Positions 4,942-56,563 of a stretch of 64,000 nucleotides of DNA are shown in pieces; the stretch's first letter is position 1, and the number at the start of each line of letters is the position of its first letter. A model generated the notes under the pieces. The model made no database searches and had not been told where the DNA came from. It saw only the letters and a program-made list of their open reading frames with translations. Source of the DNA: Zymoseptoria tritici IPO323 (lineage: Eukaryota > Ascomycota > Dothideomycetes > Mycosphaerellales > Mycosphaerellaceae); assembly GCF_000219625.1 (NCBI RefSeq), contig NC_018209.1, positions 372,001-436,000 on the forward strand, written 5' to 3'. A program made the translations under genes and the position numbers.

Positions 4942-6798
4942 CTACAACCACCGTGACGGAAGAGCATTTTGTGTCAAGATGTCTTCGACCCGCAACAGCG
5001 TCTGATAGAAGAGCAGGTGTCCATCATTTTCGGACTCGGATTCAGAGTCTGGATCGGCCGAATATCGACTCGATACCTCTTTGCGCCCTGCAATCGCATG
5101 GGTAAGATTCTCAAAAAGAATGTCGAATCGAGCATCGTGGCGAAGGTTGCGACCGTAATTTGTACGCACGTCTCTTGCCAGCTCCTTGAATTTCGACGAT
5201 GGCATTGTCCTCATGTCCTCGGCCAGGAAGTGATTGTAGTAGTCCTCGTTGCCCCAGAGGCGGAGCTGCTCACCCACCACGACACTGGCTCTGTGGTAAA
5301 GCTGATTCGCTTCTCGCAAAGTCATGTACGCCCAGTTCTTGGGCTCCACTGCTCTCGCTGGGGGTAACGGAGGCACTTGTAGCGCTGACACCGGTGAAGC
5401 GGTTTGCTCCACGATCACAGCTTCAGGCAGAGTGGCGTTAATCGCATGTGCTGTTGCTTGCACGGCTGACGAGGGGACAATACTCTCGCCCACCGTGGTT
5501 TCTTGAAGCACAGTCTCAGTCGTCCGCTCAGACTCCTGCACCACTTGTACTTCTGGAGAATGGGTTGTAGCCTCAAGTACGGTGTTCTCCGACAGCAAAG
5601 ACGGCACCACTTCCACACACTCGCTGACAGCTGAAGTTTCACCGAATCTGCACCGTAAAAGGTCAGGTAGCGCGTGACGTAGGACTGCGCTGATGGTCTC
5701 CAAGTGGCCACGGAGTTGAGGATGAGTGTTGAGCTGGATGATCAGAAACTGCGGGACACATTCTTCTAGGAAAGCCCGAGGGCCCTCAAGAAGCCTGTCT
5801 GGTGGAGTGATGACAGCTCCCAGCGGTGCAATGCTCAGAGTGGAAGAGCCAGGGAGATCGGCCGCCGTGGCTGGACTGGGAATCGATGCGGGAACATTGG
5901 TAATTTTGTCGTTCGTTGAATGAGGAGAGTCTTGAGGTCCAGCGGGGATGTCCGTCAGCAAGGAGGGAGTTGTAGCATCAATATGGATCGTGGAGGCATC
6001 AACTTCAAGCTCAGGCTGCTGTGTGATCGAGGACACTGTCTCCTCAACCGAGACGACTGTATCTCCTTCCGTATCGATGTGGGCTTCGGCGGTGACTGTG
6101 AGCGATGGTGCCGCAAGATCTGTAGGATCGGCCTCGATTTGAGTAGGAGTGTTCTCAAGATTCGATTCTAGCGTGATCGAAGGCGACACCTCCTGTGTTG
6201 GGGCCATAAGGAGAGGCGCAGCAGCCGGAGTGACTGTTACATCAATGCTCGGGAGAATTTGCGAAGTGACCGGCGTACTGTTCCGAAGCCTCATGGCGAT
6301 CTGGTAAAAGACCTCATTGAGCTCCTGGTGCTTTTCGGTCGTTCTATCGCGACCAACTGCTTGTGAGCTGTAGAATTCATTCGCTGTTCTACGGCTGAAG
6401 TAGGCTTCCCGAATTGTAGTGATCAAATTTGAATCAATCGGGATCCTGCGGGCAAATCTTGCTCTCGCGTCCGCAGCCGCAACATAAGACCGCTTGTACC
6501 GCAGGAGAAGAGCGACATGAGTATTGTCGTCAACACGGCAAAGGTCGCGGCGGGCGGATGCTAGCGCTGCGATCAAGCCATCACGGTGAATGTTGTCGGT
6601 GTCGTGGATGGTGGAGTGCGGCACTCTGATCAACATCGCAGTGAACTGCGCGGTGGCCTCGTGGTAAGCTCGAATGGCGTCTCGCACATCATCAGGAATG
6701 TCGACTGGTTGGCGTTGAAGCGCACCGACGCCGGATATTGGGGGCGAAAGTCGGCTCTGCATCATATGCGAGCCAATGGCTGGATGGACGGCCGCCAT
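4942..6798 (-). CDS. Paralogue 3 of the tandem unknown family
   Basis: Intronless, 618 residues, the longest of the three. The N-terminal block is RDAIRAYHEATAQFTAMLIR, then YVAAADARARFARRIPIDSN. The C-terminal block reads KFKELARDVRTNYGRN, then RFDILFENLTHAIAGR, then LLFYQTLLRVEDIL. Both match paralogue 2. The middle (roughly residues 175-490) is rich in Thr, Val, Ser, Glu and Pro and looks disordered. It contains a segment (PQFLIIQLN to RFGETSAVSEC) shared with paralogue 1. No catalytic motif, signal peptide or membrane helix is visible. The alignable ends show that this is one family of tandem duplicates. Function unknown. Confidence 0.75.
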   Translation of the reverse strand: MAAVHPAIGSHMMQSRLSPPISGVGALQRQPVDIPDDVRDAIRAYHEATAQFTAMLIRVPHSTIHDTDNIHRDGLIAALASARRDLCRVDDNTHVALLLRYKRSYVAAADARARFARRIPIDSNLITTIREAYFSRRTANEFYSSQAVGRDRTTEKHQELNEVFYQIAMRLRNSTPVTSQILPSIDVTVTPAAAPLLMAPTQEVSPSITLESNLENTPTQIEADPTDLAAPSLTVTAEAHIDTEGDTVVSVEETVSSITQQPELEVDASTIHIDATTPSLLTDIPAGPQDSPHSTNDKITNVPASIPSPATAADLPGSSTLSIAPLGAVITPPDRLLEGPRAFLEECVPQFLIIQLNTHPQLRGHLETISAVLRHALPDLLRCRFGETSAVSECVEVVPSLLSENTVLEATTHSPEVQVVQESERTTETVLQETTVGESIVPSSAVQATAHAINATLPEAVIVEQTASPVSALQVPPLPPARAVEPKNWAYMTLREANQLYHRASVVVGEQLRLWGNEDYYNHFLAEDMRTMPSSKFKELARDVRTNYGRNLRHDARFDILFENLTHAIAGRKEVSSRYSADPDSESESENDGHLLFYQTLLRVEDILTQNALPSRWL

Positions 6799-6869
6799 AT
6801 TGTCTGCGATGATGTGCAGAAGTACTGCGCAGACAAAATCAAGGAGGTGCGGTAGATGTTCAGTGAAGC

Positions 6870-6945
6870 TTCAGCTCGTTTGGTCCAAGAGTCGAGGTCA
6901 GCTGAGTCATTGGCCTGATTCGTCATTTTGCATGTGCCAGCGCAG
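6870..6945 (-). promoter_or_regulatory. Weaker copy of the shared upstream block
   Basis: Upstream of paralogue 3. GTCAGCTGAGTCATTGGCC is followed after a gap by TTTTGCATGTGCCAGCG. The order and distance to the ATG are like those in paralogues 1 and 2, but the identity is lower. Confidence 0.4.
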
Positions 6946-16011: not shown

Positions 16012-17535
16012 TCATAGTTGCCCATATTTCGCCATAAACGCCCTGGCTGGTCTCGGATCCTTCGTCGCCACGAAGTACTCCCCATGGTCCGCACCCCAGC
16101 TGACTGAGTCCGACCAGTACTCAAACTTTTGCTGCGTGAACTGATTGACCACCGAGTCAATATTTCGCATCGCCATCTTGTGTCCCACAGGCACGAATGG
16201 TTTCAGACTGGCTACTCGACAGCCATCTTTGAGATCAAGGAACATGTCCCGCAATGTGTCGTTGAGCGCCGGGTCGAACGCTTGATTGTTGACCAGCACC
16301 ACGTCCGCGCGCTTGAGGACCTCGAGAATCTCCTCGTTCTTAGTAAAGTCGCCTTTGAGGAGGTGCACTTCTCCGACCGAGAGACCCCAGAGACGAGTCC
16401 GAGCGGGGAACTCTCTCGCTTGCAAAGCGGCCAGTTCGCAAGGATTGTCCATCATCTCGATGCCCCAGGACTCGCATCCAATCTCGAGCGCCGCTTGAAG
16501 CACAACGTTGCCCACGCCGGAGCCGAGGTCGACGAAGATCTGCTTGTGGTTGAGGCCTGTCTTCTGAAAAATCTCGCTACAAAAGCGCGGGAGGAGTTCG
16601 CCGTAGACGTTGTTGCTGAAATTCTCGTACCGCCGTAAAGTCTCGACTTTCCAACTGACAGTGCGGGCGTAGATTTGATCGATGATACGCTGGATCCACT
16701 CGAGATCGATGTTGCGGTGTCCGCTGAGTCGTGTTTGAATGGAGCCATCGGAGAGAAGGTCCTGAAGGGTAGTGTTGAAGTCGTTGATGACTTCGATAAA
16801 GTCCTCGACGCTTTGACGCTGCCAGGCCCGATTGAAGCGTCGTGCGTAGCCGGCCTCATCGTGACTGTACTTCGTGGCGAGCTCTGCTGGGAAGTAATAT
16901 GTGCAGATGGTCTTGATTGTCTCGGTGATGTCCTCCATGGGCTTGTAATCTTCTGCTTGAATTGGGAACTTCAGCTCGAACCGTTCCTGTTGACTCCGGC
17001 TCGGATACTGAAGAGAAACAGTTTGGAAGTCTTCGTCTTCCCAGGGATTCTTGAACTTGTCCTTGTGTTCTCCTGACGTTACATCTGCGCCATGGATAAT
17101 GTCGATAACAGCCTCCTCGGCAAACGCCTCTTTCGACAACAAAGATGCCCGAGGGGGTCTGCTGTCCACCGAGCTCGGACTGCTCTTCAACCGTTTGCGC
17201 GAGGCGTCCGATTCGCTCCCTTCAGTGTCGTTGCTCTGATCATCTTCACTATCGCTGCTGAACAACGGTCCTGGCTGTGGCGTCACGCTCTTCCTCTTCA
17301 CCCCTCTTGCATTTGAAAGCGCTCGTTTCGCGGGATTGGCAGGTGTTTTCGAGTACGAGCTCTTTGCGTTTGAAGATTTCCACCGGTCGGGGTCGGGAGC
17401 TCGCGCAGGCGCGGCGCGAGAGGCGCCATTCGAGGGCGGTACGCGGACGGTTTGCTGCTTGATGGGAACCTGCACAATGGTCCTTCGGACGACAGACTTG
17501 CTTCTAGCGCCTGTGGTAGTTTTAGGGAAGTTCAT
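16012..17535 (-). CDS. DOT1: DOT1 histone H3-K79 methyltransferase
   Basis: Intronless, 507 residues. Transfers methyl groups from S-adenosylmethionine to lysine 79 of histone H3 in nucleosomes, marking transcribed chromatin and supporting silencing boundaries and damage checkpoints. The N-terminal about 130 residues are basic and Ser/Pro-rich (KRKSVTPQ, SRKRLKSSP), as expected for the DNA/nucleosome-binding part of fungal DOT1. The catalytic domain shows the family motifs in order: NNVYGELLP, the SAM-binding VDLGSGVGNVVLQAA (about residue 330), GIEMMDNP, and VVLVNNQAFDPALND, where yeast DOT1 has VNNFAF. The C-terminus is complete. Both the order and the length match fungal DOT1. A second chromatin gene (LSH-like) lies 12 kb away, but nothing links them functionally here. 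Confidence 0.95.
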   Translation of the reverse strand: MNFPKTTTGARSKSVVRRTIVQVPIKQQTVRVPPSNGASRAAPARAPDPDRWKSSNAKSSYSKTPANPAKRALSNARGVKRKSVTPQPGPLFSSDSEDDQSNDTEGSESDASRKRLKSSPSSVDSRPPRASLLSKEAFAEEAVIDIIHGADVTSGEHKDKFKNPWEDEDFQTVSLQYPSRSQQERFELKFPIQAEDYKPMEDITETIKTICTYYFPAELATKYSHDEAGYARRFNRAWQRQSVEDFIEVINDFNTTLQDLLSDGSIQTRLSGHRNIDLEWIQRIIDQIYARTVSWKVETLRRYENFSNNVYGELLPRFCSEIFQKTGLNHKQIFVDLGSGVGNVVLQAALEIGCESWGIEMMDNPCELAALQAREFPARTRLWGLSVGEVHLLKGDFTKNEEILEVLKRADVVLVNNQAFDPALNDTLRDMFLDLKDGCRVASLKPFVPVGHKMAMRNIDSVVNQFTQQKFEYWSDSVSWGADHGEYFVATKDPRPARAFMAKYGQL

Positions 17536-18134
17536 GTTGGCTGTTTCGAGGTCGGGACTAGCGGAGGTGCTTGCATGCAGCTGTCATGCTTCGACCGGGG
17601 ATGCAAAGTATGGGACGAGCGAGGGATGTCGGTAGGCTATGCGCTACCATGGAAATGGTCCCGAACGATGGTAATTGTATGAAGTGAATGAATGTGCTCG
17701 CGTGCTCGCTCTATGAATTCCAGGTAGAGAGGGAGGATTGTGCAAGGCTGGAGGAATCGCAGGCTAGAGGTTTTGCGAAAGTCGGGCTCGGCTTGTTGAA
17801 GGAGCGATCTTCGGCAGGCGCATCGCCCCAGCTGCGGGCCGATCATGCACATTTCATCAACCACCATGGGAAAGGTACTGCAAGGTGAAGTGCGCTCATC
17901 ATGTGCCTACCACCACATGTTGCAATCGGAGAGACAGAGACAGACTCTCGTCATGCGAATCGATTCAGCATTGTGCATCTTGCGCCACGGTTCCGCAATA
18001 GACTTCACCCAAGGTACGGGGCGCCGAAGTCGTGGGTCGAACTCTCAGATCTCCTTGATCCTGTCCGTATTTCTTGCTCCATTATCCTACTCAGATCGCT
18101 CTGGCGACTCGCCTGATCGCACAATCTGGAAGAT
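17536..18134. other. Divergent promoter region between DOT1 and the DUF6604 locus
   Basis: Two genes are transcribed away from each other here. No further gene recognised. Confidence 0.5.
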
Positions 18135-20679
18135 ATGAGCAGCCGATCTGAACCCTTGCCTCATCACTTCACAGGACGGTACCAATCATACAAGCAGAAG
18201 ACGCAAGAAGTGATCGAATGGTTGCTCCTGAATGCGGGCTCATGCGACTCGAGCGCTATTTCGGCCGCAACGCCGCGGAAGTTGAATGGCAGCAGGAAGA
18301 CACTCAAGATCAAAACGCGCGCCTTGATCGACCTCGCGGAGACCGTGAAGTCCAAAAGAACCCCCGTCCCAGCTGTTCTCCTCAAGGACCTCGAGCAAGT
18401 GGTGCAATATCGACGCGAATTCGCATCCTGGTACGAGCTGAAGGGTACCGAAACAGAGGCTCCAAGCAATACTGGACATCAGTTCTTCATTGGTGTTTGC
18501 GAAAAGGTATATCAGCTAATCGCATCCTCAGAAGCTCCGGCACCAGCCAGAGTAGGATCGAAAAATGGCAAAGGAGCCGCATCCTCGTCCATCGTTGACG
18601 CAGCACTTTTGGACAAGACAGTCAGGAATCTCTTCGCACAGCTCAAAGTTGATGAACCGAGCGTATCGCCACTCGGCCAGGCTCCAAAGCGGAACACACA
18701 GCTTCCGAAGAAGCATGCCTCCGTTGTACTGGAGAGCGACCAACGTGAAGCTCATGTTTTTGCGATCTGGTGTCATCTACAGGATATGCGCGATGTTCGT
18801 GAGCTCGTCACTCAAACGTGGCAGAGCTTTGCAAATGGCGATGTCAGCCTCATTGCTGCTGCCCTCGTCCTCGAGGTGGGTCTGATCCTCCTGCACTCTG
18901 CTGACACTGAGTTCGTTCGCGGCTCTCCAGAGTTTGGTTCGTGGTATGCCGTCGCTAATGCGCTCGGTATCATGGTGAGGAATTTAGGACCGCGCACTGC
19001 GCATGCATATCCGATGTCGCCCACTACGAATCCGACGGGAGTTCCGCTGCTATCCAGCAACAAGTTCATGGATCTCCTATGTCCAGGTGCCGCAAGCGCA
19101 GTACGCAGCATTCATTTCAATATCAAGCATCAGGAGGAAAAGCCGAGTATCTGCCGGCTACCATGAAGGACGAACACTACTCATTTCTTGACCTTATGGG
19201 AGACTCCATTGCGGAATTGCATTATCACTCGAAGAAACAAAACTCGCGGATTGAAAGGAGTGAGTTCATCATCGGCCTGGTGGAGTACTGTGCAGGTCGG
19301 TCCAAAGCCATGCCCACGTGGCTGGTAGTGAGCTACGAGATCTACTGTGCGATCTTCCAGATGATAGGCTCTTGCCCGGACATTGCGGCTCGCACCTATC
19401 TTGACGAATGGCGCCGCTGAACGAAAGCGTGATCAAGTATCGTACACTCCTTGGACAAGCTCAGTATCCCACACGGCCGAGAACGGGAAACTGGTCCATT
19501 GAACTCGACAACGCACTCGAAGCTTACGCTTCATGGCCTTTCGACAAGCGAGGGCAAGACGGGAGATATTCCAACGACGAATCAAATCCAAGGCCGCGCA
19601 TGAGAACGCTTCTACACTTGCCGTGTGCGATGGGCAACCTGCTTTTCAGCTCCAAAATCAGAATCCACAAGGCTGGTCTCGATATCGCCGGTGACCTCCA
19701 ACAAGTGGTTATCATGGCCCACCTTTACACGGCGATGCGTCGCTACGGCATTCTCAAAGCTGCATGGCACGACATGGATCTGGTACTCGCGCAGCAGAAA
19801 TCGGTGCAACCTCTGTTCCCCAAGCTTTCGACGGATCCTTTCGCCATAGTCAAGCATTTCCTCGTGGCACTGGGAACGCCGCTAACAGCTTTCGCTGGTG
19901 GGCAGCTGCCTAAACCTCCACCCGAGAGTGTCGTTGGACCGTTTTGTCGACGCCTTCAGGAACCCTCCCTGTTCCTACAGAATATGGACAAACGGCACGA
20001 CGAAGGACGCTTCAAGCGGCAAAAGCTCATTGAAGTCGTCCTGAATACCATGACCGAGAAGCCCGGACGAAAGCGCCCGGTAAAAACAGCCAGAACCAGA
20101 TCGTAGAGACAAGGCCTGTCGAGCTACTATCCACATTCAAGAAGAGTTTCATCTCCGACGAGCCACAACTTGACTTCGACTATTTCGGCTTCTGGATGTC
20201 CTGCCACTCCATGTTCCGCAAGATTCTCAACGACGACGACATCTACGATGTGTTGGATAGAGAAGCAGCTGCGAAGGATGAGCTCGACCTATGCTATGTC
20301 GTGGTATATTAACTGCTCCTGGGTGCAGCCAAAGCCGTCAGTCGCGGGAAGCCAATCCAGGGCTTGCCCATCAACGCCGCTGCCGAGCTGATGGAAACAT
20401 TCATTTCGTCTTCTGGCAATGGATATTCTCAAGCCGCCTTTCGCGTGTCCAGCGGACGGATACCAAAGGATATGCGGCCGATACTGCGGGAATGGACGCC
20501 GAGGACCCTCGGCTGCCGCAGCTATTTTGTCACAAGATCCTGCCTCGACGTTCGTAGGCACGGCTTCTAACGAAACTGTATATGACCCGAATGGGACCGA
20601 AGAACGGTTTGAGATTGCGAAGGACCTTGAGAAAGATGTTTACGCTGCGGCGAGCGAGGATGGAGCCACCGAGTGGTAG
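18135..20679 (+). pseudogene. DUF6604-type gene, apparently disabled
   Basis: The N-terminus (RYQSYKQKTQEVIEWLLLNA) resembles the start of fungal DUF6604 proteins, whose function is unknown. One splice is convincing: a 47-bp GT-AG intron at 19087-19133 joins LLCP to GGKAEYLPATMKD. After that the coding potential jumps frame near 19412 (from SCPDIAARTYLDEW to NESVIKYRTLLGQ) and again near 20085-20100 (into VELLSTFKKSF, DFDYFGFWMSCHSMFRKIL), with no good introns at either place. An in-frame TAA at 20310 then follows CYVVVY, and the frame continues as LLLGAAKAVSRGKPIQGLP. The end near 20679 is uncertain. It could instead be a multi-intron gene or contain assembly errors, but three separate interruptions favour a pseudogene. 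Confidence 0.55.
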
Positions 20680-34058: not shown

Positions 34059-35745
34059 CTACAAAACAGTCGCTTCTGTCCGACGTCTGACGCTTAGCTT
34101 CAGAGACGGGTCAGAGACACAGGTAAATCCATGGTCGAATGCCCTCGGCATCTGGCCTTCCTCAAATCTCAGCTCGTACTTGAGCAAGATGTAGATCAGC
34201 GCAATCTTGACCTCGTTTGCTGCGAAGAAGCGGCCCGGACAGGCGTGTACCCCGTAGCCGAAGGCGATGTGATCTGGCGACGTCGAAACAAGCGGAGCCA
34301 TGTCGCGCTTCATGGGGTCTTCTCGCATACGGAGGAAGCGATATCCATCCCAGGTCTTTGGTGATGACGGGTGCACTTTGGCATCCCACATCCGACTCGA
34401 ATCAACCAGTATGCTCTGACCTTTTGGGATCACGGTACCATTCGATAAAGTCACACGCTCTGTGGCTATTCGACCCATCGACGCTAGGGTATCTGCTGTC
34501 AGCTGGAATGACGAGCATATGATCCACTCAATCCGCTTACCGATGGACAATGGCTTCATACGCTGACTCTCCTTGATGCAGCTATCGAGTAGCTCCATTC
34601 GTCCGAGCGATGCTGTTTGCAGGACGCCGTCTTGGTTCATAATCGAAATCATTTCTTCCCTCAGCGGCGCTATGATCTCAGGATGCGCCGCGATGTCCGC
34701 AAGCGCCTGGGACAGCAGATCGGTGGTCGTATGAACGGCAACAGCCGAAAGAGACAGCTGGACGATTTGAGGATCGTAAGACGCCGTACCTGCGGCACAC
34801 TCGATCCAAGCAATAGCATCGTCGAAGACTGTCGCCTTTCCTCCAGTGTTTTTGGCTACGAGTTTCGACCGTTCCGCAAGGACAGGTTCAATCGTAGCTC
34901 TCGCCTTGTGTATCGCTGCACGACTCAAACGGCACTTGCTGAGAAACAAGCTTGCGATAGGTCTCAGCCAAGGAGACCAGAGCCGGAGGTCCTGTGCCGC
35001 AAGGAAAGCTAGTACAGCATACTCCTTGGATACTTTTAGCCATTCAGGGTTGTGGCAAAGCTCCGCTCCCAGAAAGACTCGCGACGAAGTACGAGCTACT
35101 AACTCAAGGATCGTGGTTTGAATAGTCAATTCGTGCCAGTCTCGTTATGTCAGTGAGGTCATGGAGCTCGGAACGAGGCACACACATACCTGAGTTGGAT
35201 CCAAACAACTCCGATACGGCCACTGATATTTCGTCGACAAGTGGAGTGGTGACTTTGGCTTCTCTTTGCGTTAGTGAGATATTTCTTGACACGATATGTA
35301 CGGTTCGCTTGCCTAGTTGCTTCGTGAGATCTCTGTTGATGACGGTCTTGACGATGTGGTTGTTGTAGTCGTCTCGGAAGACCTCGAACCCAGGCAGGCG
35401 GCCATGCATCATCTTCTTTAACGTTAGCGAAGCTGAGTGGTAGATGGAAAACAAGGCCTTACTCACTCTTTCAACTTGCTGCCGCAGATGGAAACGTTTG
35501 TCGTTCCGAATCTCGTTGGCCATGCTTCCGGGCAATACCATGAGTACTCCAGTATCACTGTAGATTGAGACTGGCGAGTTTTGATGCTTTCCAAACCAAT
35601 CGGACAGCATTGGCCTAGCATTACCCAAGAAGGCAATCTTGATACGCCGATCAGACAGCTCAAAGAAGCCTTTTGCATTCAAGAGAGGGTTGGAGGATCG
35701 ATCGCTCCAATGAACTGCGACCGCCGCGAGTGCTAGTATGATCAT
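34059..35745 (-). CDS. Cytochrome P450, kaurene-oxidase-like, terpene cluster
   Basis: Five exons: 35467-35745, 35313-35415, 35190-35258, 34541-35140 and 34059-34495, giving 495 residues. A short N-terminal membrane helix (MIILALAAVAVHW) anchors it in the ER. Motifs: KESQRMKP (ExxR, K-helix), a segment DSSRMWD, and the haem loop IAFGYGVHACPGRFFA with the cysteine ligand. The CPGRFFA form and the SDWHELTIQTTILELVARTSSRVFLG region (interrupted by an intron) are usual for ent-kaurene-oxidase-like fungal P450s found beside terpene synthases. The I-helix lacks a typical AGxDT and has SAVAVHTTTD instead. Intron 35259-35312 seems to use a GC donor; removing it gives TKQLAKVTTPLVDE as in relatives. 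The start could lie further upstream. Its probable task is oxidising the terpene made by the neighbouring synthase. Confidence 0.88.
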
Positions 35746-36576
35746 CAGATAGGGAATTGGTGAGTCTGCGATGTCGGCAGCGATTTCCAGTATGCAACAC
35801 ACCGCGAAAGTGTTGCTTCCATCTTGGGCGAAAGTTTGAGCTTTACTGCGCAAGACCTGCCCGTGCGGTTAGTGATCTGCTGTATTTGGTGGGTGTGTCG
35901 GCTTAAGTCGTTGTAGTGCAGAGTGAATCGCTGGCTAGTACACGATGGTCAACCTGTCTGGCGTATGCGCCAATCTAGCATTCGATGTCCGTCGCTGCCG
36001 AACTAGGATGGCCGAGCGCATGCTCTCGGGCTTGTTGTCAGCATAATCCGTTGGCAGGGTTGCTGACATGACAGCAAAGACGCCCACGGTCAGCAATAAT
36101 CATCATTCATATGTCGATTATCCCGCTTAGAGTAGCAAACGGCACAATCAAGAATGCATTATGTCGTTCGGCTTACCGAGATCGGTCAAGAGGCGCTTTA
36201 TCAGCCACCAAAGGACCATTGCTTGTCATTATCCCTCGATTCGTGCGACACCCAGTGCCTCCTGATGTGGAGCCGAGGTGCCTTTCCGATAACTGTCTAC
36301 GAAGAGGTTGCTTCTTCGATATCACCGGTCAGGCAGACAGTGCAGTCTGTTCCGCAAGTTGGCTCTCCCGCAATAAGTCATCATCTGCTGCAGTGTCCGC
36401 ATCCTGGTAGCATGCCGTGCATTCTTGTCTTTCTCAGGCATTGCGGCAGTCCTTGCATGTCACATCTCATCCCAGCATTCAGGTTCTTGACTGACGACGA
36501 AACGAAGTTGCCGAGAAAGCAGTGCTCGATGCCTGTAATCAACCGGCGGTGCTGCAAGGTTTGTTTCGAGAAATCG
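35746..36576. other. Intergenic: P450 promoter and 3' flank of the terpene synthase
   Basis: No gene recognised in any frame. Contains the GTCAGC-type motif group at 36037-36096. Confidence 0.5.
36037..36096. promoter_or_regulatory. GTCAGCA motif group with an inverted repeat, upstream of the P450
   Basis: GTCAGCATAA is at 36037, TTGCTGAC at 36060-36067, and GTCAGCAATAA at 36089-36099. The last two form an inverted repeat with 8-bp arms. It lies about 290-350 bp upstream of the P450 start. The same arms recur at 42268-42295, and a half-site (GTCAGCGTAA) lies at 39120 in the synthase/P450 divergent promoter. Confidence 0.4.
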
Positions 36577-38959
36577 TCAAATCCAAAGTCTTCGCAGTAC
36601 CAGCTCGAGCATTGGGTTTCCAGATCCGAAGGCCAACTCCAGTGACTTCAACTCTTCGAGGATATCATCTTGCAGGTCTTTGAGCAGCGAGATCGTCGCA
36701 TTCAAGGCACCCCCTGACCTCATCTTCTCCAAGATCAGCTTCTTCATGCTCAATGGCATCTCTCCAGTTCTCTTGTGTTGCAAGATACCCTTTATCATGA
36801 TCTGCGTGGGATCGGAACCGGCGAGACAGTAGATGAGCGGCAATGAGATCTTGCCCTCGTCGAGATCCTCGCAGAAGCCTTTCTGGTTGGTATACTATTG
36901 GAAGGTTAGGCATGTCTTCATGATAGCCGAGATTTGTATGCAACCTCACCTCATCTGACACGAGGTTCTGGTAATCATCGCGAATTTGAAAGTAGCGCCC
37001 AAGCAGTGTTATGAATCGTTCAGCATCAATGTGATGGCAACTCGTGCTGGATTCGCCTTGCATCAGCCTGACACAAAGACGAAAGAGTCCTCCCGTCTTG
37101 TGATCCACCATGTTCAGGTACTCGTCCACCGATGGGATGTAGGTGTGGTGCTTCCAGTGCAAATCCAGAGCCTGTCCGCAGTGTAGATTCTTCAGCTCTT
37201 CGACGAAGACGGTGGCGGCGTCCACACCGCGGAGTTGTCGAAGCTCTTCAAAGGCGCATACAAAAACCCAATTGGCGGAATTGATTGTTTGCGCTGTGCC
37301 AAACAAGGTATGTGCTGTCGGCTTACCTCTCCGCAGCGTCGAATCGTCCTCGATATCATCCAACATCAGGGAGGATTGATGAAGCATACCAATGATGGAC
37401 TTGATAGATGTTGACGACCCAGCTGGCACCGCAAGCCAGGAATCGAGGGCATCAATGAATGTCTCCCTGATTCTTTTCGAAGGGAGGGTTCTGATATAGT
37501 CGTAAGGAGCCCTGACTGCCTATGTGTACGTGCTGGTCAGACTGGGGGAGAGTGATACAATGGCTTGTCAGTGCTTACATCTTCAGAAGGCTTCTGTACT
37601 CGACTTTGAGCGCCATTGGGCGCCAGCTCTTTACTACCGTTGCTGTCGATCTCAGTGTGGATGATTTCGCTCCCTGCACCCCGAGCGACCATTTCAGTAG
37701 CTGTGGTACTCGAATAGGCTTCGTTCATGTGAGACATGCCACTGCTCCCGGCAGTTTTGATCGTACTGATGTGCATTGCAGAATCGGCCCTTGCAAGGTC
37801 TTTGTCTGACGTTGACCGTCGGTGAAACACATTGCCCACCAGCACATATTCTGGCTGATCGAGGTCTTCTTTGCTTGGATAACGAGGAGCGTATAGGCTC
37901 CAGAATTCAGAGCCCGAGGCTGCGTACTGAGCTGCCATAATGTACTTGCGGTGAGTTTCCGGGATTGAGCCTTCGCTCTGTTCCAGATTTCTGACCAGCG
38001 ATAGGTGCCGTTCTTGGATATCGACGTAGATCGCCCGAAGTCTCTCGATTGCTTTGACGTCCGAGCAGTTGAACTGTCGCATTAGGATGCAGACCGCGTT
38101 GAACGGCACATCCGAGCCGGGTGTTTCGAGGTGATGTTTGAGCTCTTTCGGCCAGCTGTGGCAATCATTGATCAACGCAGCTGTGTATAATGCAGTGTTT
38201 GCAATTTCGGACAGCTTTTCTTTCTCCGCCTTGGTTAGATGAACTCCCAGACCAAAGCACGACATCTCCTGGAAGACACTGCGACTGGTTAGCCGAAACG
38301 TACCTTCAGGGAAGCTTTGCATGCTAGCTTACTCGAGACCGCAGTTGACCAGCCGAACTGGCAAATACTCCTCGATGGTGCAAATGTCGGATGGGGGAAA
38401 GGTAGCCGTCTCTAAACCGTCGCTATAGGTGTTCATCACATCCATGGCCAGATCCCGGTCCATCACCATCATCTCGACCAAAATGCTGGCCTGGAATTGC
38501 TTTGTTTTGATGGCCACGCTCGCGTTTCCCTGCACAGTATTGCTGTGAGAATCCCTTCCCAGCGAGCGTTGAAGTTCCGCATTGAACGACGTGGCTTGGT
38601 CCCTATCGACTGCATCATAGTAGTCTTGGAATCGTTAGCTCTGAAGTTCAACGGGGTAGACATTCAGGCCTACCGTCGTTCATGATCGTAAAGTCGGTGA
38701 ATCTTGTCATGAGCGCAAGCCTTTCAGGAAGACATTCGGGTATGGTGAAAGCCACCACGTGAACAGCACCCAAAGCAGGGTAATGGCCCGTGGTTTTGGC
38801 ATCCAAGTCCGAATCGACTTGAGCGGCGAAGTCGTCGCGGATCTTGTTTGCCGCTGCTAGGCATCGAGCATGTTCGCGGTGCACTGCTGTTGGAAACCTG
38901 CTCAAGGTCCCAGACTGTTTGACAACATCGTCCGGAACAGGAATCGCAAATTCTGCCAT
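36577..38959 (-). CDS. Bifunctional terpene synthase (class I cyclase + prenyltransferase)
   Basis: Five exons: 38674-38959, 38333-38624, 37579-38278, 36950-37519 and 36577-36894, giving 721 residues, close to fusicoccadiene synthase (about 720). Residues 1 to about 345 are a class I terpene cyclase. DDYYD at 95-99 is assembled across intron 1, and the NSE motif NDCHSWPKE is at 230-238, the expected spacing. A variable Ser/Gly-rich linker (about 345-425) follows. Residues from about 427 are an E-type isoprenyl diphosphate synthase: LMLDDIEDDSTLRRG (480-484 is DDIED), FQIRDDYQNL (607-611) and YTNQKGFCEDLDEGKISLP. Introns are 49-59 bp. The prenyltransferase half should build GGPP (C20) or GFPP (C25) from IPP and DMAPP, and the cyclase half turns it into a polycyclic hydrocarbon. 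All metal-binding motifs are intact, so it is probably active. The product cannot be read from sequence. Confidence 0.95.
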
Positions 38960-39365
38960 GTTCGTTGAGGACTTGCTGTCGAAGTGGCAGCAACGATTGT
39001 GGCGAGATGGTATTTGTGTCTGGTCGTCGGAGGACTCCTGTCCTAAATTGTCCGATGCCATGAGTGTAAATATGAGCCCTAGCCATAATCTCTGGTGTCA
39101 TAATTTTGATATTGACACTGTCAGCGTAAGCGATGAGAAGGGCATGTAAGCTCTGCTTACCATGAAGTGGGGCGCAAAGACACAATGCTTAAGCAGACCT
39201 GTCGATCACGAAGAGGCAGCTTTGCCCATTTCCGTATATCGCAGAATTCCGTCGACGTTTCTGACATAAATTGTCTCCGACCTGGGTCGAATACATGCAG
39301 TGCCGCACCTTCGAGAGTCGTCGATTCGAATTGCTCCCTCAATCGCCCAAAGGTCGAAGTCCAGC
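38960..39365. promoter_or_regulatory. Divergent promoter shared by terpene synthase and P450
   Basis: 406 bp between two divergent start codons, so both genes are likely controlled together. Contains GTCAGCGTAA at 39120-39129, resembling motifs elsewhere in the cluster. By eye I found no exact match to the tox-box ATCTCNCGNA bound by TOXE. Confidence 0.5.
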
Positions 39366-41165
39366 ATGACTGCTAGACCTGCAACCGTTCGGAACGTGAT
39401 GAGCTCTCTCTCGACTCGCGACCTGGCATACGGCGCCCTCTTCAGCCTGACGTGGGTAGTCGTGGTCCATGTCATCTGGCGCATCGTGCATTATCGCTAC
39501 TACCATCCCTTACGACACTATCCAGGTCCATGGCTGGCAAGTGTTACACGCATGTGGCTGGCATGGCACCACTTTTGGGGAACCGAGCTGCATGCGCAGT
39601 GGGCGCTCATCAAGAAGCACGGTATGTCGCGATTGAAGTCCGGGGTGTTCAGTACCAACAATCCTTGCAGGACCGGTGATCCGTATCACGCCGACCATGC
39701 TGCTGGTGGCGGACAGCAAAGAGATGCCCATCATCTTTCATCGCAGAGACACCAAGTCTCGTTTTTACTTGCAAGGCTATGTTGGCAAGAGTAACAGCAT
39801 CCTGCTTCGAGAACCAGGTGCTCATGCCGCACATCGCCGCCTTATTGGCGCTCCATATGCTCTTGCAAACATTCAGCGGACGGAGCCATTGCTTGACAAA
39901 CATATACTGCACTGGATTAGCACCATTGACGCAAGATATGCTGCCCTCGGCAAGCCAGTAGACTTCTCGCACTGGTCTCACTTCCTGGCATATGATACCA
40001 TCACCGATTTGGGTTTCAGGAATCCTCTTGGCTTCGTCAAGGCCGGCTCTGACGTTGGCAACCTCATTGGGGGCTTCCGGATTGGCATGCTCATGTTTGG
40101 TGTGGCAGGTCGCTTGTACCCTTTCACGGAGAAGCTGCTCAACTCGTGGTTCAAAAAGTGGCTGGTCGTTCGCACGGAACAGCAGTTGGGCTTCGCAGTA
40201 GTCATGGAGAAAGCTGGAGCAATCCTTGCCGAGCGCCGCGATCGTATCAAGCGTGGTCTCAAGGCCGAGAAAGGAGAGGGATCGTACGATCTTTTGCAGG
40301 CGTGAGTAAAGACGAATGACGTCGCTGTATGGCCGGTCCAGGAATCTTCTACTAATCACCATTTGGTATTTGCAGGTTCATGGATGCTCGCACGCCGGAC
40401 GGCGACCATCTCGCTGACGATACAATCGTCTCTGAAATTTTTGTGGTCCTCGGCGCCGGCTCGGATGCCTTCGGAAGCGCGTCGACAGCCTTCATGGCAT
40501 CGATATTATCACGGCCCACCATTTTCAGACGACTCATGGATGAATTGGAGGATGCGATAGCTGATGGGAAGCTGAGCTACCCGGTCCCGTCTTACGCCGA
40601 AGTATCGCAGCACCTGCCCTACTACGCCGCCTGTATCAAGGAAACGCTGCGATTGGACCCGAGCGGCGCCACTCTCCTACCTCGCGAAGTCTGCCCAGGC
40701 GACCCAGAGCTGATCCTGAACGGCCATGTAGTCCCCATCGGCACCGAAGTGGCCATGAATCCATGGATCGCGCATCGGGACGTCAACCTGTACGGTCCAG
40801 ATGCCGAGGAGTACAACCCAGATCGCTGGCTCAGTGATCCCGCGAGGACCAAGATATACGAGAAGTATAACCTCGCCTGGGGTTATGGCGCTCGTCTTTG
40901 TCTTGGCAAGCCCTTTGCCATGATGGAGCTCTACAAAGGACCGCTCTCATTGCTCCTCAACTTCGATGTGACCATTGCTGAGATCGGACCGAACACGCCG
41001 GCGCCGCATTCGGAGATGTATGCCACGGTGAAAGTATGGGGAGACGTCTGGTTGCAGTTGCAGCGCAGTGATCGGTGGTCGTCGTGGTCGTCCTTGGGTA
41101 AAAGCCACATTCCGGGCGAGATTGAAGACAGGAGCGGGCAGGACGGCGAGACTGAGGTGCGGTGA
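39366..41165 (+). CDS. Cytochrome P450, terpene cluster
   Basis: Three exons: 39366-39621, 39671-40301 and 40376-41165, with introns of 49 and 74 bp, giving 558 residues. N-terminal membrane anchor: YGALFSLTWVVVVHVIWRIV, then the proline-containing hinge YYHPLRHYPGPWLA. Motifs: I-helix VLGAGSDAFGSAS (the usual Thr after the acid is Ala), KETLRLDPSG (ExxR), EYNPDRWL, and haem loop AWGYGARLCLGKPFA. The general look is that of pisatin-demethylase-like fungal P450s. It is longer than usual because of a Ser/Trp-rich tail of about 35 residues (RSDRWSSWSSLGKSH). A later ATG at 39399 is also possible. Divergent from the terpene synthase, so it very likely oxidises its product. Confidence 0.9.
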
Positions 41166-41439
41166 CTGAGGTGCCCGGATGATTTTTGATTACATAAGCA
41201 AAATTCCACCAAGGAAATGTTGCCTTCCCGATCCACAACAATCTCGTCCATCCGTTAATTCAGCAATGAGGCGCGAGCGGTGTCATTCAATATGGCCACC
41301 GTTGACGTTGGGAAAGTTTCGAGTACATCGAGCGGCTGCAGGGTGATGACCTTTATATCCAAAGAATACGCCGCTGAGATTTCCAAACCCTCGAGGCTAC
41401 CTTCCTGGGCTCTCCAGCCCTCGAGCGCATCAATGAAGC
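41166..41439. other. P450 3' flank; possibly more of the monooxygenase relic
   Basis: No recognisable coding sequence. The C-terminal part of the relic monooxygenase would be expected here on the minus strand but cannot be recognised. Confidence 0.4.
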
Positions 41440-41690
41440 TATTCAGACCGGCCGGCCATGGTCCAGCAGTAGCAGCCATGCTGCGTGTTGGCCAAGAAGG
41501 AAGCGAAATTCCTACTACGAGCCATTTGCCAGCCGGGCCCTGTGCTGATGTTTCGTCTCTACTCCTCTTCGTCAGTCGGCTTCTGACCTCGAACACTCAC
41601 AGCGGCAGGCGTTCGCTGGAAGACCAGCAATTTCTTACACCATTTGGCGAGGTGTGGCACCGCTTGAACAGCCAAAACTGTTTGACATGC
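41440..41690 (-). pseudogene. Relic of a Baeyer-Villiger-type flavin monooxygenase
   Basis: On the minus strand one frame reads [36 protein letters not shown], then a stop (TAG at 41559-41561), then RRNISTGPGWQMARSRNFASFL. This is the stretch that follows the second dinucleotide-binding motif in FAD-dependent Baeyer-Villiger monooxygenases (normally VVPHLAKxAKxLYVFQRTPSSVDVR, PTDPEEW). The stop sits where Trp is usual. No full-length frame exists on either side, and the upstream segment is only faintly recognisable. So this is a degraded gene inside the terpene cluster. Confidence 0.65.
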
Positions 41691-42536
41691 TCCTTGAAGG
41701 CTTCGTCGTTCCTCGAGAGCGTATATACGGCATCATCTAGACCCTCGGATGCCTCTTTTGCGTCGACCAAAGGCTGGAACCGACAAGCTGATGCCGAAAA
41801 TACGCCCAACAAAGCGACCCAGCTCCACGCAAAGCTGCGCAACATCGAACGTCGTAGACCAAGCCGTCGCTCAGATATTGACAGAGCACCACCGAAGGGC
41901 AGGTCGATGTCCGTGACTTCTGGCCTGGACGGTTATGCCTACCAGCTCTCTACGACGGTTTCCGTTCGAGCCAGTGATTATGCGTGAAGTAAACATGGTT
42001 GCGATTACTAGTAATCAGTCATCAGCCGTGTAGTGCTGACGCAGTTCGGCTTACACATGCCCGCGCTTATAATTCACCGGACGATACTCTGGTTACACGA
42101 AAATTGAAGAAAGCAGAAGAGAATCGCTTGTCGCGGATCTACTTCTGTGGAATCCGAGTCCGTCCGCAAGTTCGAAGCAGCCTTTGTCCTTCACATGGCG
42201 TGGCGTGGAACATGCTGGAGATTCTTCGGAAGCTTACGGTCCAGACTCGATGGGAAGAAACATGACATTGCTGACATTACGAATATGGTCAGCAATAACG
42301 CTCAAGTATAACGCTCAAGAAAATCGCGCAAAGTAAGCTTGCGGGTTGCAATATCGCATTCAGACCCATTGCAACCGGTCACGAACACGACCAAATCCCC
42401 AACAGGCATCCTTTTCGGGCTGTACGCTGCCGTCTGAACACTTCAGCGAACTCGGGTCTAGAATTATATCGCTGCACTTGGATTCAGCATCGTCTGATCG
42501 CGCAAGAATGGTCGTGAGCAACTAATCGGCACTCGA
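41691..42536. other. Decayed DNA between the two relic genes
   Basis: No intact gene. It probably held the 5' part of the monooxygenase relic and a divergent promoter. Contains the inverted repeat at 42268-42295. Confidence 0.4.
42268..42295. promoter_or_regulatory. Inverted repeat TTGCTGAC / GTCAGCAA
   Basis: Arms at 42268-42275 and 42288-42295 with a 12-bp spacer. The right arm extends to GTCAGCAATAA, the same as the site at 36089. Lies between the two relic genes, where their divergent promoter would have been. Confidence 0.4.
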
Positions 42537-43200
42537 GCTGGAGCATTGCAGCATCGTTGGATGGGCTTTATCCGGAACGTACGACCCGACAAAGCCAGTA
42601 CTGGTTGATGCCGGCGAATCTGGCGGTCCTCCACGCTTCATATCCAAGACGCAGGCAACGGATCTCGTCGCTTCGCTGGTTGGTGCGCTGCAAGGGGTTC
42701 GACCGTCTGTCTCCACTTAACGAACGATAAACTTTATCCCATTCTGGTGCTGGCGATATGCGCTCATCGTGCCGCTGGACAGGCACAAACACTGCGTACA
42801 CTGTACCGAAGCTCGAACATCACTTTCGAGTCTCAGACACTCGGTATGTAATCACCACGGAAGAGCGCCTCGAAGCAGTCCGTGCCGCCGCTACAAGCTC
42901 GACAGAGATCATCATATTCACCGACATCCTGTTTAAACGGCCTCGAGACACGCCGCCTGGATTGCGGGCCCTCCATGATCTCCAGAAGCCATCAAGCAGG
43001 GAAGATCTGTACGCTACCATACGCACGATTGACAACACCTTGGTCTCTACCCTGACAACTACGTCAGGCACAACTGGATGACCGAAGATGGCAGCTCGTA
43101 CTCAGCGAGGCATGGTGCTCGAGAGTGCCGCAATCGAAGAGCCGGTCAAATCATATGAAGTTCGTCGCTTCTACTCCACCCCAATTTTCCACGGTCTCTC
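42537..43200 (+). pseudogene. Relic of an acyl-CoA-ligase-like (AMP-binding) enzyme
   Basis: Fragments in changing frames line up with the fungal 4-coumarate-CoA-ligase-like family. They are YDPTKPVLVDAG from about 42572, then LHLTNDKLYPILVLAICA near 42713-42770, then AYTVPKLEHHFRVSDTRYVITT, then EIIIFTDIL, then the AMP-binding loop TTSGTTG, a TGA stop at 43079-43081, PKMAARTQRG, and YSTPIFHGLSAPDMV near 43170. At least one frameshift (near 42770) and one nonsense codon interrupt it. No C-terminal half is recognisable. It would have activated an acid with ATP and CoA, or with a carrier, in the former pathway. Confidence 0.7.
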
Positions 43201-44055
43201 GGCACCCGACATGGTACGTCGCTGCACATCGCCATTCCAGCGGCCATACTCCCAAAGGCTCGAGGATTCTCTATTCTCAGTCAGAACCCGTGCAATCTTC
43301 ACGCATCACAGCGAGACCTAGTCATTTTCCCGGAGAAGCCTCGGGGCCTCGCACGTACAACCCATCGTCGTTCCTTGTAGATTAGGTAATCAGACATGGT
43401 AACAATAGCGTGATCAGACAGTCGAAAATCTCTTCCTTGAGAATACGTAGCCAGACAATCAATTCAACACCAGTTCAGCGAGGTATTCCTGAAGGCGGTG
43501 AGGACCAAAGCAGGGTGTTCCAGTTACCCTGCAACATGCCTCTTCTTTGTTCCGTCAACCCCCAGGGTGGCTCTGAGAGACTATCAATCGAACAAAGTGT
43601 CAAGCAGACGAACAGACGTTCAATTTTCGAAAGCTAAGCACTCAACAAGGTTCCCGAAAATCTGGTAGGACGTCTGGAACAACAAGTCTGGTGTGAGGTT
43701 TTGCGCAGCAATTGTATCGGGAGTCCATTCGTACAATATTGGCCCCTGGTATAACCCTTGCGTCACGAAGCATAAACGTGCTGCCCACGCCCGCATAGGA
43801 CGCGAGGGATCAATGGCCAATGATTATAGCTGTCACACTTGTGCTCATCGTCTGGTGGACCAAGGCGGCACGCCCCTTCGAACCACAGGAGACAAGGGTC
43901 GCCTTGATTTCAAGACATGTGCTGAACACTTGGTCCCGGTTCGACGTACATCCTGCCTGAACGAGAAAAGCTTGCCGTACTTGTAACCAGCGACAAATGA
44001 GGTCTTGTGCCAGTCGAGTCACTCTCTAAGCTCCTCCACGACTGGACATGTGGAT
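43201..44055. other. No intact gene; probably decayed 3' half of the ligase relic and promoter of the regulator
   Basis: Short frames only, none matching the expected C-terminal ligase motifs by eye. Confidence 0.4.
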
Positions 44056-45010
44056 ATGCACGGCAACGAGTCCAGCGGTCTCACGGCCCAAGAGCGGCGC
44101 CGGGAACAGAATCGTCTGGCGCAACGGCGGTTTCGAGGTAGGCCATCCGCATAGTACTGTCCGCTTCGGGTAACGCTGACAATGACATGGCAATGCAGAA
44201 CGCAACTTCCCTCGGAGCAAAGGTACACCGAGGTCGGCTTCCATCTCTCCGGAACCGAATTCCAGTGAAGCACAACGGCGGCGGACTCGAGGACGCCCAG
44301 CAACTGCACAGCCGGAGTCGATCTCAACAGGAGTGCAACAGCGAGGCGGTCTTTTGACTGAACAAACTTCGGGCTCGGAATCCCCCATCGCAAGCCCAGA
44401 CAGGCGTACAAGCCAATCGGCATCGGCCGCTTCAGACTTCAACTTTACATTTGACAACTTTGTGGACTTTAGAGACAGCCTGAACACCCTGAGCTTGCCA
44501 GACATGGCCACTTTGCTCTCCACGCTCCCTGAATCTCAGACGGCGGATACGATCGACACAGGCCTGCAATGTTTGGAAGTCGAGGCCCCGCAAGATAGCC
44601 CGCTGCACATGGCGGCGCGACGCGGATCGCAAAAGATTGTCCAGATGCTGCTTCAGCATGGCGCTGACATCAACGCGCGAGACGCCCAAAGCATGACGCC
44701 ATTGACGCTTGCAATCCTCCAGAACCACGAGGCCGTGGCCAGCATATTGTTGGCCCATGGGGCCGACGTATTGGCGCTGGACCACCAGCAGCGGTCGGCA
44801 CTACACCTCGCTGTATTGCATCGCCGCGAACGGCTCTTGAGGATCATAGTCCGGCATTGTGGCAAGAGCAGTGGTGTGCTTGATAGCTACGACATGGAAG
44901 GCCGTACGCCGTTGCATGTCGCCATCGGGATGGACTTCGTCTCGGCGGTTGAGGTTCTGTGTGCCGGTGGCGCCAATGTACAGCTGCAGCCCGGCTTGCG
45001 AATTATATGA
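44056..45010 (+). CDS. bZIP basic-region + ankyrin (TOXE-like, bANK) transcription factor
   Basis: Two exons: 44056-44137 and 44199-45010, with a 61-bp intron (GTAGGC donor, CGCTGAC branch), giving 297 residues. The N-terminus is a bZIP-type basic region, AQERRREQNRLAQRRFRERN, with the intron inside the codon after RRFR. No leucine heptads follow; the next stretch is Ser/Pro/Arg-rich. Residues from about 165 form ankyrin repeats: DSPLHMAARRGSQKIVQMLL, MTPLTLAILQNHEAVASILL, SALHLAVLHRRERLLRIIV and RTPLHVAIGMDFVSAVEVLC. This combination defines the bANK class known from TOXE (HC-toxin cluster of Cochliobolus) and the apicidin regulator of Fusarium, both pathway-specific activators. Its position suggests that it controls the terpene genes. 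It is shorter than TOXE and the last repeat ends abruptly, so the C-terminus may be truncated. Confidence 0.85.
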
Positions 45011-55585: not shown

Positions 55586-56563
55586 ATGTCGTCCGACCAA
55601 GAGCAGAGGAAAGAGGACACGAAAACCCACGAGCAGTGAGGACAGCCCAATGCCACTCAGCACTCATCAATATGCTAACACATCCTCACCAGAATGTACG
55701 ATGCCGAAAAGGCCATCAAGCGGAACCCTCACCCGGACTTCAAGAAAGTCGAAGCATCCCGCCCAGACTGGGACTCCGCCGCAGAATGGCACTACACGAA
55801 AACCAAGAACCCATCCTGGAAAGCCGGTCAAGGCGCCAACGACAACGGCGAATCCCTCAAGAAGAAACACATCGAAATCGACCCGTATGAAGAAGGTCGT
55901 CCGGCGACTTTCAACTACAAACTGCTCATCTCGGCCATCATTCCTCGTCCCGTGGGGTTCCTCTCCACCCGCTCCGCAGATGGCAGTAGTACCAATCTCG
56001 CTCCTTTCTCGTACACGCAAATGGTGAACCACGATCCTCCCGTCTTCATCGTCGGTTTTGCAGGCGGAATGGCGCAGGCGAAGGATACGTTGAAGAACTT
56101 GCTGGAGAGCAAAGAGTGCACGATCAACATCATCTCCGAGCACTACCTCGAAGCCGCCAACGCTACGTCGGTCAACGCACCCTTTGGCGTATCCGAGTGG
56201 GCGCTAACTGGGTTGACTCCGGCGGAAAGCTCGCAGGTCAAACCCAGCCGTGTCAAGGAGGCCGTCTTTTCCGTGGAAGGGAAGTTGATGAACACGCAAG
56301 AATTCGAGAGCAGAGCTACGGCGGGGAAGAAGACGGGTGTCTTGGCTGTGATTGAAGGTGTCAGGTTCTGGGCGAGAGAGGATGCGATCAATGAGGAGAA
56401 GAATCTGATTGATCCGGCGGTGTTGAGGCCTATTGCGAGGTTGGGTGGAATCACGTATTCGAGGGTGTTGTCCGGAATTGAGATTCCGAGACCGGATTGG
56501 GAGGAGATGAAGAAAGATGCGGAGCCGGCTGGGTTGGTGCAGAGTAAGAAGGAGGGTCAGTGA
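55586..56563 (+). CDS. Flavin-reductase-like, FMN-binding split-barrel protein
   Basis: Two exons: 55586-55635 and 55693-56563, with a 57-bp intron (GTGAGG donor, TGCTAAC branch), giving 306 residues. The core is the flavin reductase-like domain: LLISAIIPRPVGFLSTRSAD, NLAPFSYTQMVNHDPPVFIV, and TLKNLLESKECTINIISEHY. FMN would sit in the split barrel. Relatives reduce flavin or act as FMN-dependent oxygenase partners; the substrate is unknown. The leading about 70 residues are charged and probably flexible. The gene ends 53 bp before the convergent APH-type gene. Confidence 0.85.

Follow-up and report, generated by a model that had tools for sequence, protein, structure and literature searches.

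A putative chimeric sesterterpene synthase of Zymoseptoria tritici and its neighboring P450 genes

A locus on chromosome 10 of Zymoseptoria tritici IPO323 encodes a protein that joins a class I terpene cyclase to a prenyltransferase, raising the question of which terpenoid it makes and which of the neighboring genes take part. An earlier note on this DNA (64,000 nucleotides in all, referred to here as the window) had proposed a pathway of the di- or sesterterpene type built around a chimeric prenyltransferase-cyclase, a reading that proved correct. The note also placed the synthase divergent from one P450 gene and beside another, and this is indeed the arrangement: P450-2 is divergent from the synthase, while P450-1 lies 3' of it on the same strand. 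The features of the locus, in window coordinates, are as follows.

34059..about 35868, − strand: P450-1, with open-frame exons 35856-35467, 35412-35313, 35258-35190, 35140-34541 and 34483-34059
35857..36600, − strand: 744-nt stretch, an intron in the gene model of strain ST99CH_1A5; it holds the synthase stop codon (36577-36579)
36577..38959, − strand: predicted chimeric sesterterpene synthase (PTTS), 721 aa, five-exon model from the IPO323 sequence
38960..39365, no strand: presumed shared promoter, 406 bp between the start codons of the synthase and P450-2
39366..41165, + strand: P450-2, 558 aa, exons 39366-39621, 39671-40301 and 40376-41165
42731..43081, + strand: AMP-binding-like fragment (adenylate-forming enzyme); its Pfam AMP-binding match, at E = 0.0027 and 17 bits, falls short of the cut-off of 29.9
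44056..45010, + strand: bANK-type regulator gene, a candidate cluster member only, 297 aa, exons 44056-44137 and 44199-45010

Architecture and family of the synthase

The five exons of the synthase model (− strand; 38959-38674, 38624-38333, 38278-37579, 37519-36950 and 36894-36577) are separated by four GT-AG introns of 49, 54, 59 and 55 nt. The 721-residue translation contains DDYYD at residue 95, NDCHSWPKE at 230, DDIED at 480 and DDYQN at 607, exactly where the earlier note had located them, with the class I cyclase predicted to be N-terminal and the prenyltransferase C-terminal in one open model. That both motif sets belong to one protein is read from the sequence and from public gene models. 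The same exon chain is found in P0001, a public protein of Z. tritici ST99CH_1A5, which departs from the IPO323 translation at a single position (327) in the synthase part and at four over all 1241 residues. Pfam detects Terpene_syn_C_2, Terpene_synth_C, polyprenyl_synt and p450 domains in P0001. Two relatives, P0002 (684 aa) and P0003 (710 aa), are co-linear with the synthase, and its best PDB matches are full-length chimeric synthases.

The cyclase of the fungal chimeric prenyltransferase-terpene synthases (PTTSs) is defined by the motifs DDXXD/E and (N/H)DXX(S/T)XXXE (PMC8307374). Both are present in the N-terminal cyclase of the synthase, which is followed by a C-terminal trans-prenyltransferase with two Asp-rich motifs; judged by these features, the protein is a fungal chimeric prenyltransferase-terpene synthase. 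Whole-genome searches with the Terpene_syn_C_2 profile (E = 5.4e-9) and the polyprenyl_synt profile (E = 3.3e-51) both matched this locus, with values too low to be attributed to chance, and found no second PTTS in the IPO323 genome.

Relation to ZbSS and the predicted product

ZbSS (PTTS010; accession MW798202 in PMC9605422) of the sister species Zymoseptoria brevis is described with the motifs 95-DDYYD, 230-NDCHSWPKE, 487-DDIED and 614-DDYQN; it is placed in Clade I-F and, when expressed in yeast, yields sesterevisene (C25H40) by type A cyclization (PMC8307374). Compared by this published motif description, the Z. tritici synthase comes from the same genus and shares the chimeric architecture, the motif strings and the exact positions of the cyclase motifs, whereas its prenyltransferase motifs occur 7 residues earlier (480/607 versus 487/614). 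Judged from the motif numbers, the linker of ZbSS is 7 residues longer. The NDCHSWPKE string is present in only 2 of 40 synthase matches, the Z. tritici record and that of Hortaea. The described motifs point to orthology of the two enzymes, and we consider it highly probable that this locus is the Z. tritici counterpart of ZbSS, with a C25 product of type A that is then oxidized by P450-2.

Because ZbSS has been described and the locus lies within cluster 25, a terpene cluster predicted in a 2017 survey of Z. tritici (PMC5561558), the enzyme type is already characterized and, by analogy, the product is more likely to be a C25 compound than a diterpene. The suggestion that the synthase might be uncharacterized thus no longer holds. 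Mycgr3G76129, the key gene of cluster 25, would from its interval correspond to the synthase. In the proposed pathway, the C-terminal prenyltransferase would convert DMAPP and IPP into geranylfarnesyl diphosphate (C25). This would be ionized by the class I cyclase at the N-terminus and cyclized in the type A mode (C1-IV-V), giving sesterevisene or a close 5/8/6/5 relative, the product expected by analogy with ZbSS.

In a tree of cyclase domains with five references, the synthase falls outside the group of PaFS, EvSS and EvAS (support 98/97), which we take to be type B. It lies on the side of NfSS, although this placement is weak (85/75); PbSS, which like NfSS is presumably type A, sits on the other side and is flagged as a long branch. 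Plain similarity does not separate the two types: pairwise identities to the five references range from 23 to 28%, and among solved cyclase domains sesterfisherol synthase scores 105.4 bits versus 105.3 for fusicoccadiene synthase. The comparison with fusicoccadiene and ophiobolin-type synthases drawn in the earlier note needs qualification, as these probably represent the other cyclization clade.

Two departures from a ZbSS-like product have to be weighed. A few residues near the pocket control the product (PMC8307374), so that of the Z. tritici enzyme may differ from that of ZbSS. An enzyme of the same family, acting on the same C25 substrate, could through active-site changes between the species form another type A sesterterpene. 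The unequal linker length is in keeping with such a divergence, but the motif strings and cyclase motif positions are identical, down to the seldom matched NDCHSWPKE, and the species are congeneric; we consider this outcome unlikely. Far less probable still is a type B (ophiobolin- or fusicoccane-type) synthase, which is disfavored by the tree and by the type A product of the Z. brevis enzyme (PMC8307374). Such an enzyme would directly explain a sesterterpene-like ion from Z. tritici cultures, annotated in extracts as 3-anhydro-6-epiophiobolin A, for which the authors report no matching gene cluster (PMC8939313). The synthase being the sole PTTS found would agree with this, as would its identity to PaFS, the highest among the five references by a tiny margin (28.1%). 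The ion, however, was assigned by dereplication, and the wording is ambiguous as to a restriction of the ion to isolate Zt10 (PMC8939313). A ZbSS counterpart with a type A C25 product remains the preferred reading.

The flanking P450 genes

P450-2 contains the haem motif WGYGARLCLG and a Pfam p450 match on its last exon, and looks intact. In the IPO323 record P0161, the start codon is placed 11 codons downstream of that in our model, and 12 extra residues are retained at the first intron. The 406-bp stretch may provide shared regulation of P450-2 and the synthase. Among the matches listed, six other species (Hortaea werneckii, Myotisia sp. PD_48, Aspergillus venezuelensis, A. oleicola, Penicillium herquei and P. 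malachiteum) have a synthase match and a P450-2 match on contigs of identical length, and the two Myotisia matches carry consecutive locus tags. P450-2 is a recurring partner of such synthases. In having both relatives these species resemble Z. tritici; unlike it, they have no P450-1 relative on a contig of the same length among 117 rows.

Synthase/P450 pairs are known to give oxidized sesterterpenoids, including stellatic acid, sesterfisheric acid, quiannulatic acid and asperterpenol B (PMC9605422). Here too a P450 gene adjoins the synthase, with its start codon 406 bp away in divergent orientation. By analogy with these two-gene clusters, P450-2, transcribed divergently from the presumed shared promoter, would oxidize the C25 hydrocarbon. 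The quiannulatic acid cluster of Emericella variecolor resembles the present locus in its chimeric synthase (EvQS) with a neighboring P450, while the EvQS skeleton is 5-6-5-5-5 (PMC9605422) compared to 5/8/6/5 for ZbSS, and the Z. tritici locus has a second P450. ZbSS and EvQS are 46% identical (PMC8307374). No characterization of the P450 steps or the end product was found in the literature searched, in contrast to the largely known enzyme itself.

P450-1 has a Pfam p450 match and one GC-AG intron. A frame test and alignment showed that no ATG precedes its conserved membrane anchor in the same frame: the first in-frame ATG, at 35745, lies within the anchor, and an ATG at 35822 is in a different frame. 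The anchor looks disturbed in the IPO323 sequence, making the contribution of P450-1 uncertain. None of the 117 listed matches with a sized contig shares its contig size with a listed synthase or P450-2 match, in a limited test that covered 120 of 1111 matches, two of them Z. tritici's own (3D7 and the window), with the 1A5 copy inside P0001. P450-1 was accordingly rejected as a recurring cluster partner, and it is probably a lineage-specific addition. An intact pathway with two oxidation steps, as the earlier note had envisaged, is doubtful on these grounds and because cluster 25 was scored as not co-expressed (PMC5561558).

The ST99CH_1A5 model joins the synthase and P450-1 across the 744-nt stretch into the 1241-aa protein P0001. 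Taken literally, a single transcript spliced over this stretch would, at least in certain strains of Z. tritici, encode a trifunctional protein (cyclase, prenyltransferase and P450), and chain elongation, cyclization and one oxidation would be carried out by a single polypeptide. The same splice is possible in the IPO323 sequence, which is open throughout, and would explain the missing upstream ATG in the P450-1 anchor frame. However, the other four synthase introns span just 49–59 nt, P450-1 of strain 3D7 is modeled on its own, as a 469-aa protein (P0041), and P0001 is the only one of 37 bifunctional matches with a p450 domain (proteins above about 1261 aa were excluded as candidates). In addition, the peptide starting at ATG 35822 gives an ungapped alignment of 24 positions to the N-terminal end of a 70%-identical P450 from A. 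alliaceus; 1 of 200 shuffles was as good for that frame, and two other relatives aligned no better than shuffles. This alignment fits a separate P450 whose frame was broken later. We give the trifunctional protein very little credence, and the ST99CH_1A5 fusion is probably an annotation merge of two genes.

Surrounding sequences, expression and significance

The AMP-binding-like fragment has an in-frame stop directly past its TSGTTG motif and is probably a gene relic; with a weak Pfam match alone and no hit in the PDB at thresholds as high as E = 10, it was rejected as a cluster gene. Searched as DNA against the genome, neither 41200-44000 nor 34059-38959 matches anything beyond itself. Dinucleotide ratios can be read as a sign of RIP-affected repeats, and no 1-kb stretch within 28001-50000 resembles such a repeat.

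The bANK-type gene starts 2.9 kb beyond P450-2. Described bANK members have a bZIP-type basic region without a zipper, followed by four ankyrin repeats (PMC4109984). The protein encoded here likewise has a basic region without a leucine zipper, then ankyrin repeats: the bZIP_1 match is confined to residues 12-29 (profile 6-23 of 64) and, at E = 0.059 and 13.9 bits, falls short of the cut-off of 27.6, no zipper was matched by Pfam, and Ank gives E = 9.9e-25, with three stretches passing individually. ToxE, Aps2 and Apf2 share this arrangement, but theirs are cyclic-peptide NRPS clusters (PMC4109984). A single ToxE box is present in the window, within P450-1, versus 3.16 expected. The Apf2 box, allowing at most one mismatch, occurs 43 times versus 67.9 expected, with none in 38960-39365. 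Regulation of the cluster by the bANK protein is without support, as neither box is found between the synthase and P450-2.

The scoring of cluster 25 as not co-expressed also weighs against the preferred reading, although the 2017 survey asked for three genes that were co-expressed and had transcripts at all time points. The cluster 25 row of that survey was the sole published gene-level expression entry found for the locus (PMC5561558). Cluster expression in planta was studied in PMC8939313, where the gene-level tables are supplementary.

One public Z. tritici gene model probably merges two genes and should be used with caution. The synthase/P450-2 pair recurs, though patchily, across Dothideomycetes and Eurotiomycetes. 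The sole PTTS found in the reference genome of Z. tritici is now placed in a type with a characterized congeneric member, and the origin of the sesterterpene-like ion thereby becomes testable: provided that the ion is formed by a PTTS and that no further PTTS exists in the isolates, deletion of the synthase in a producing isolate should abolish it.

The synthase gene and its genomic context

The chimeric prenyltransferase-terpene synthase (PTTS) is encoded on the minus strand at 38959-36577. Splicing of its five exons yields a 721-residue protein with DDYYD at position 95, NDCHSWPKE at 230, DDIED at 480 and DDYQN at 607, as proposed in the earlier note. The introns are 49–59 nt long with GT-AG ends, the exon chain is identical in the public record P0001 from strain ST99CH_1A5 (1A5), and PbSS, stellatatriene synthase and fusicoccadiene synthase, all full-length chimeric enzymes, head the PDB matches; these results confirm the predicted protein. 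The synthase is a genuine and well-formed representative of a known family, and its counterpart in a sister species is already characterised.

Profile searches of the whole genome (39,686,251 bases, 21 contigs) located Terpene_syn_C_2 at two places, the synthase locus and one site on chromosome 2. A second full chimeric arrangement was not found genome-wide, and chromosome 2 gave no prenyltransferase match. The prenyltransferase matches on chromosome 1, at 2,434,726 and 3,528,238, fall within terpene clusters 3 and 4 of a published Z. tritici cluster table (PMC5561558). Together with the agreement of P450-2 with an IPO323 record, this places the window (C10:372001-436000) on chromosome 10 of the wheat pathogen Z. 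tritici. The same table includes the locus in terpene cluster 25 (10:341,276-419,193), scored positive for a transporter and a transcription factor and negative for co-expression. That source called co-expression only where three or more genes were expressed together and transcribed throughout the time course, so the negative score counts only weakly against a unit of two genes. Among the papers listed for sesterevisene, Zymoseptoria sesterterpenes and Zymoseptoria ophiobolins, no functional work on the Z. tritici locus came to light.

Enzyme type and likely product

Sesterevisene synthase of Z. brevis (ZbSS, PTTS010) is described as a Clade I-F enzyme with motifs 95-DDYYD, 230-NDCHSWPKE, 487-DDIED and 614-DDYQN, which in a yeast chassis makes sesterevisene, a 5/8/6/5 sesterterpene (C25H40), via type A cyclisation (PMC8307374). 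Compared through this published motif description, the Z. tritici synthase has both cyclase motifs identical in string and position, whereas DDIED and DDYQN lie seven residues earlier (480/607 versus 487/614), which points to a shorter linker than that of ZbSS. NDCHSWPKE is present in 2 of the 40 synthase relatives matched. We infer that the two enzymes are orthologous; a type A product other than that of ZbSS is an unlikely outcome for the Z. tritici enzyme.

The cyclase-domain tree (29 rows) included five reference synthases of types A and B, namely PaFS, EvSS, EvAS, NfSS and PbSS. The Z. tritici domain clusters with those of Hortaea and Myotisia (support 99/99). The comparison with characterised bifunctional synthases suggested in the earlier note separated it from the PaFS/EvSS/EvAS group (98/97) and placed it, weakly (85/75), towards NfSS. 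PbSS, also a type A reference, was positioned across the tree from it, and the program flagged its branch as very long. Cyclase identities to the five references are 23–28%, the highest being to PaFS (28.1%), and PDB bit scores are level between the cyclases of sesterfisherol synthase (105.4) and fusicoccadiene synthase (105.3). As the PbSS placement, the identities and the level scores all run against a simple reading, the type A call rests mainly on ZbSS.

The two P450 genes

Two P450 genes flank the synthase, one divergent from it and one beside it, as had been noted:

34059 to about 35868, minus strand: P450-1, after the synthase on the same strand, carrying FGYGVHACPG as its haem motif together with an EXXR motif
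39366-41165, plus strand: P450-2, which begins 406 bp from the start of the synthase and is transcribed away from it

P450-2 agrees with the IPO323 record P0161 at all 547 aligned residues, differing in the start codon and in 12 residues at one intron boundary. Among the matches listed, relatives of the synthase and P450-2 occur on equal-sized contigs in six other species (Hortaea werneckii, Myotisia sp. PD_48, Penicillium herquei, P. malachiteum, Aspergillus venezuelensis and A. oleicola), with consecutive locus tags in Myotisia. When these matches were compared by eye, some species, among them A. stella-maris and Fusarium sp. NRRL 66182, had both kinds of relative with no such pairing, and P. 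malachiteum and A. oleicola had extra unpaired relatives besides the paired ones. A tree of 21 of the 47 P450-2 matches unites Z. tritici, Hortaea, Penicillium antarcticum and Myotisia (100/99; rows P0161-P0163 and P0178), the Myotisia row being a long branch, and separates them from the other Penicillium and Aspergillus proteins. This grouping departs from the species tree, which hints that the synthase/P450 pair may be a candidate for horizontal transfer, with an old duplication as the alternative. Characterised synthase/P450 clusters of similar composition are described as giving oxidised sesterterpenoids (PMC9605422), and by analogy P450-2 would oxidise the synthase product.

Among the best 120 of 1111 P450-1 matches, the closest from beyond the genus is a P450 of A. 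alliaceus (70% identity), well ahead of the others at 50% or below. Its conserved membrane anchor lies in a reading frame without any upstream ATG, and this frame beats all 200 shuffles against the N-termini of each of three relatives tested. The first ATG in the anchor frame (35745) falls within the anchor, about 25–30 residues short of the relatives. Another ATG, at 35822, opens a different frame. Its peptide aligns ungapped over 24 residues with the N-terminus of the A. alliaceus protein, against which one shuffle in 200 did as well for that frame; against two other relatives the frame was no better than shuffles. The 1A5 model reads P450-1 in the same frame as IPO323. The simplest reading of these sequences is that the anchor frame is disturbed in both strains; A. 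alliaceus has an intact relative. On this evidence, together with the conflicting gene models described below, the idea that the pathway is intact and includes two oxidations is unsupported as it stands.

The 3D7 model of P450-1 (P0041) differs from window 34059-35745 mainly in the N-terminal half, the C-terminal half being nearly identical, and is without one exon-sized stretch relative to the IPO323 gene. The pattern might stem from haplotype divergence or from a tract of recombination.

P0001 (1241 aa) joins the synthase to P450-1 via a 744-nt intron, and the IPO323 sequence (window 34059-38959) permits the same splice. In 3D7, however, P450-1 is modelled apart (469 aa), starting at the internal methionine. 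The introns within the synthase gene are only 49–59 nt, and no fused relative besides P0001 is present among 37 bifunctional matches (proteins up to about 1261 aa). On these last two grounds we take the 1A5 fusion for an annotation merge of two genes and consider a genuine fused protein very improbable.

Neighbouring genes and the reported ion

Two features lie beyond P450-2:

42731-43081 (within the stretch 42731-43400): AMP-binding-like degenerate fragment, a probable relic, between P450-2 and the bANK gene
44056-45010: bANK-type regulator (basic region and ankyrin repeats), beginning 2.9 kb past P450-2

An in-frame stop adjoins the TSGTTG motif of the fragment. A search with the binding motifs described for bANK proteins did not support regulation of the synthase/P450-2 promoter. 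Past the bANK gene are Peptidase_S26 and Iso_dh genes, and on the opposite flank an SNF2 gene and an open frame that matched nothing in Pfam; none shows any sign of pathway membership. Elsewhere in the window, DUF6604 occurs in two separate open frames, 4942-6870 (minus; barely above the Pfam cut-off, 29.7 vs 27 bits) and 18117-19166 (plus), with a DOT1 histone methyltransferase frame (16012-17583) between them. The predicted hybrid PKS-NRPS cluster 26 tabulated in PMC5561558 (10:425,702-485,734) extends from window position 53702 onward, about 12.5 kb past P450-2, and a flavin reductase-like frame is located at 55679-56563.

A sesterterpene-like ion annotated as 3-anhydro-6-epiophiobolin A has been reported from Z. 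tritici culture, in wording that may mean it was specific to isolate Zt10, and the same source states that ophiobolins were not predicted from genome data (PMC8939313). Since no PTTS besides this one was found in IPO323, the ion would be a product of this locus, a non-PTTS product, or wholly mis-annotated. In the first case it may be an oxidised type A sesterterpene that was assigned wrongly. The synthase is ordinary as an enzyme; the locus is moderately useful as a lead to the chemistry after cyclisation, to the condition of P450-1 and to a possible connection with the ion.
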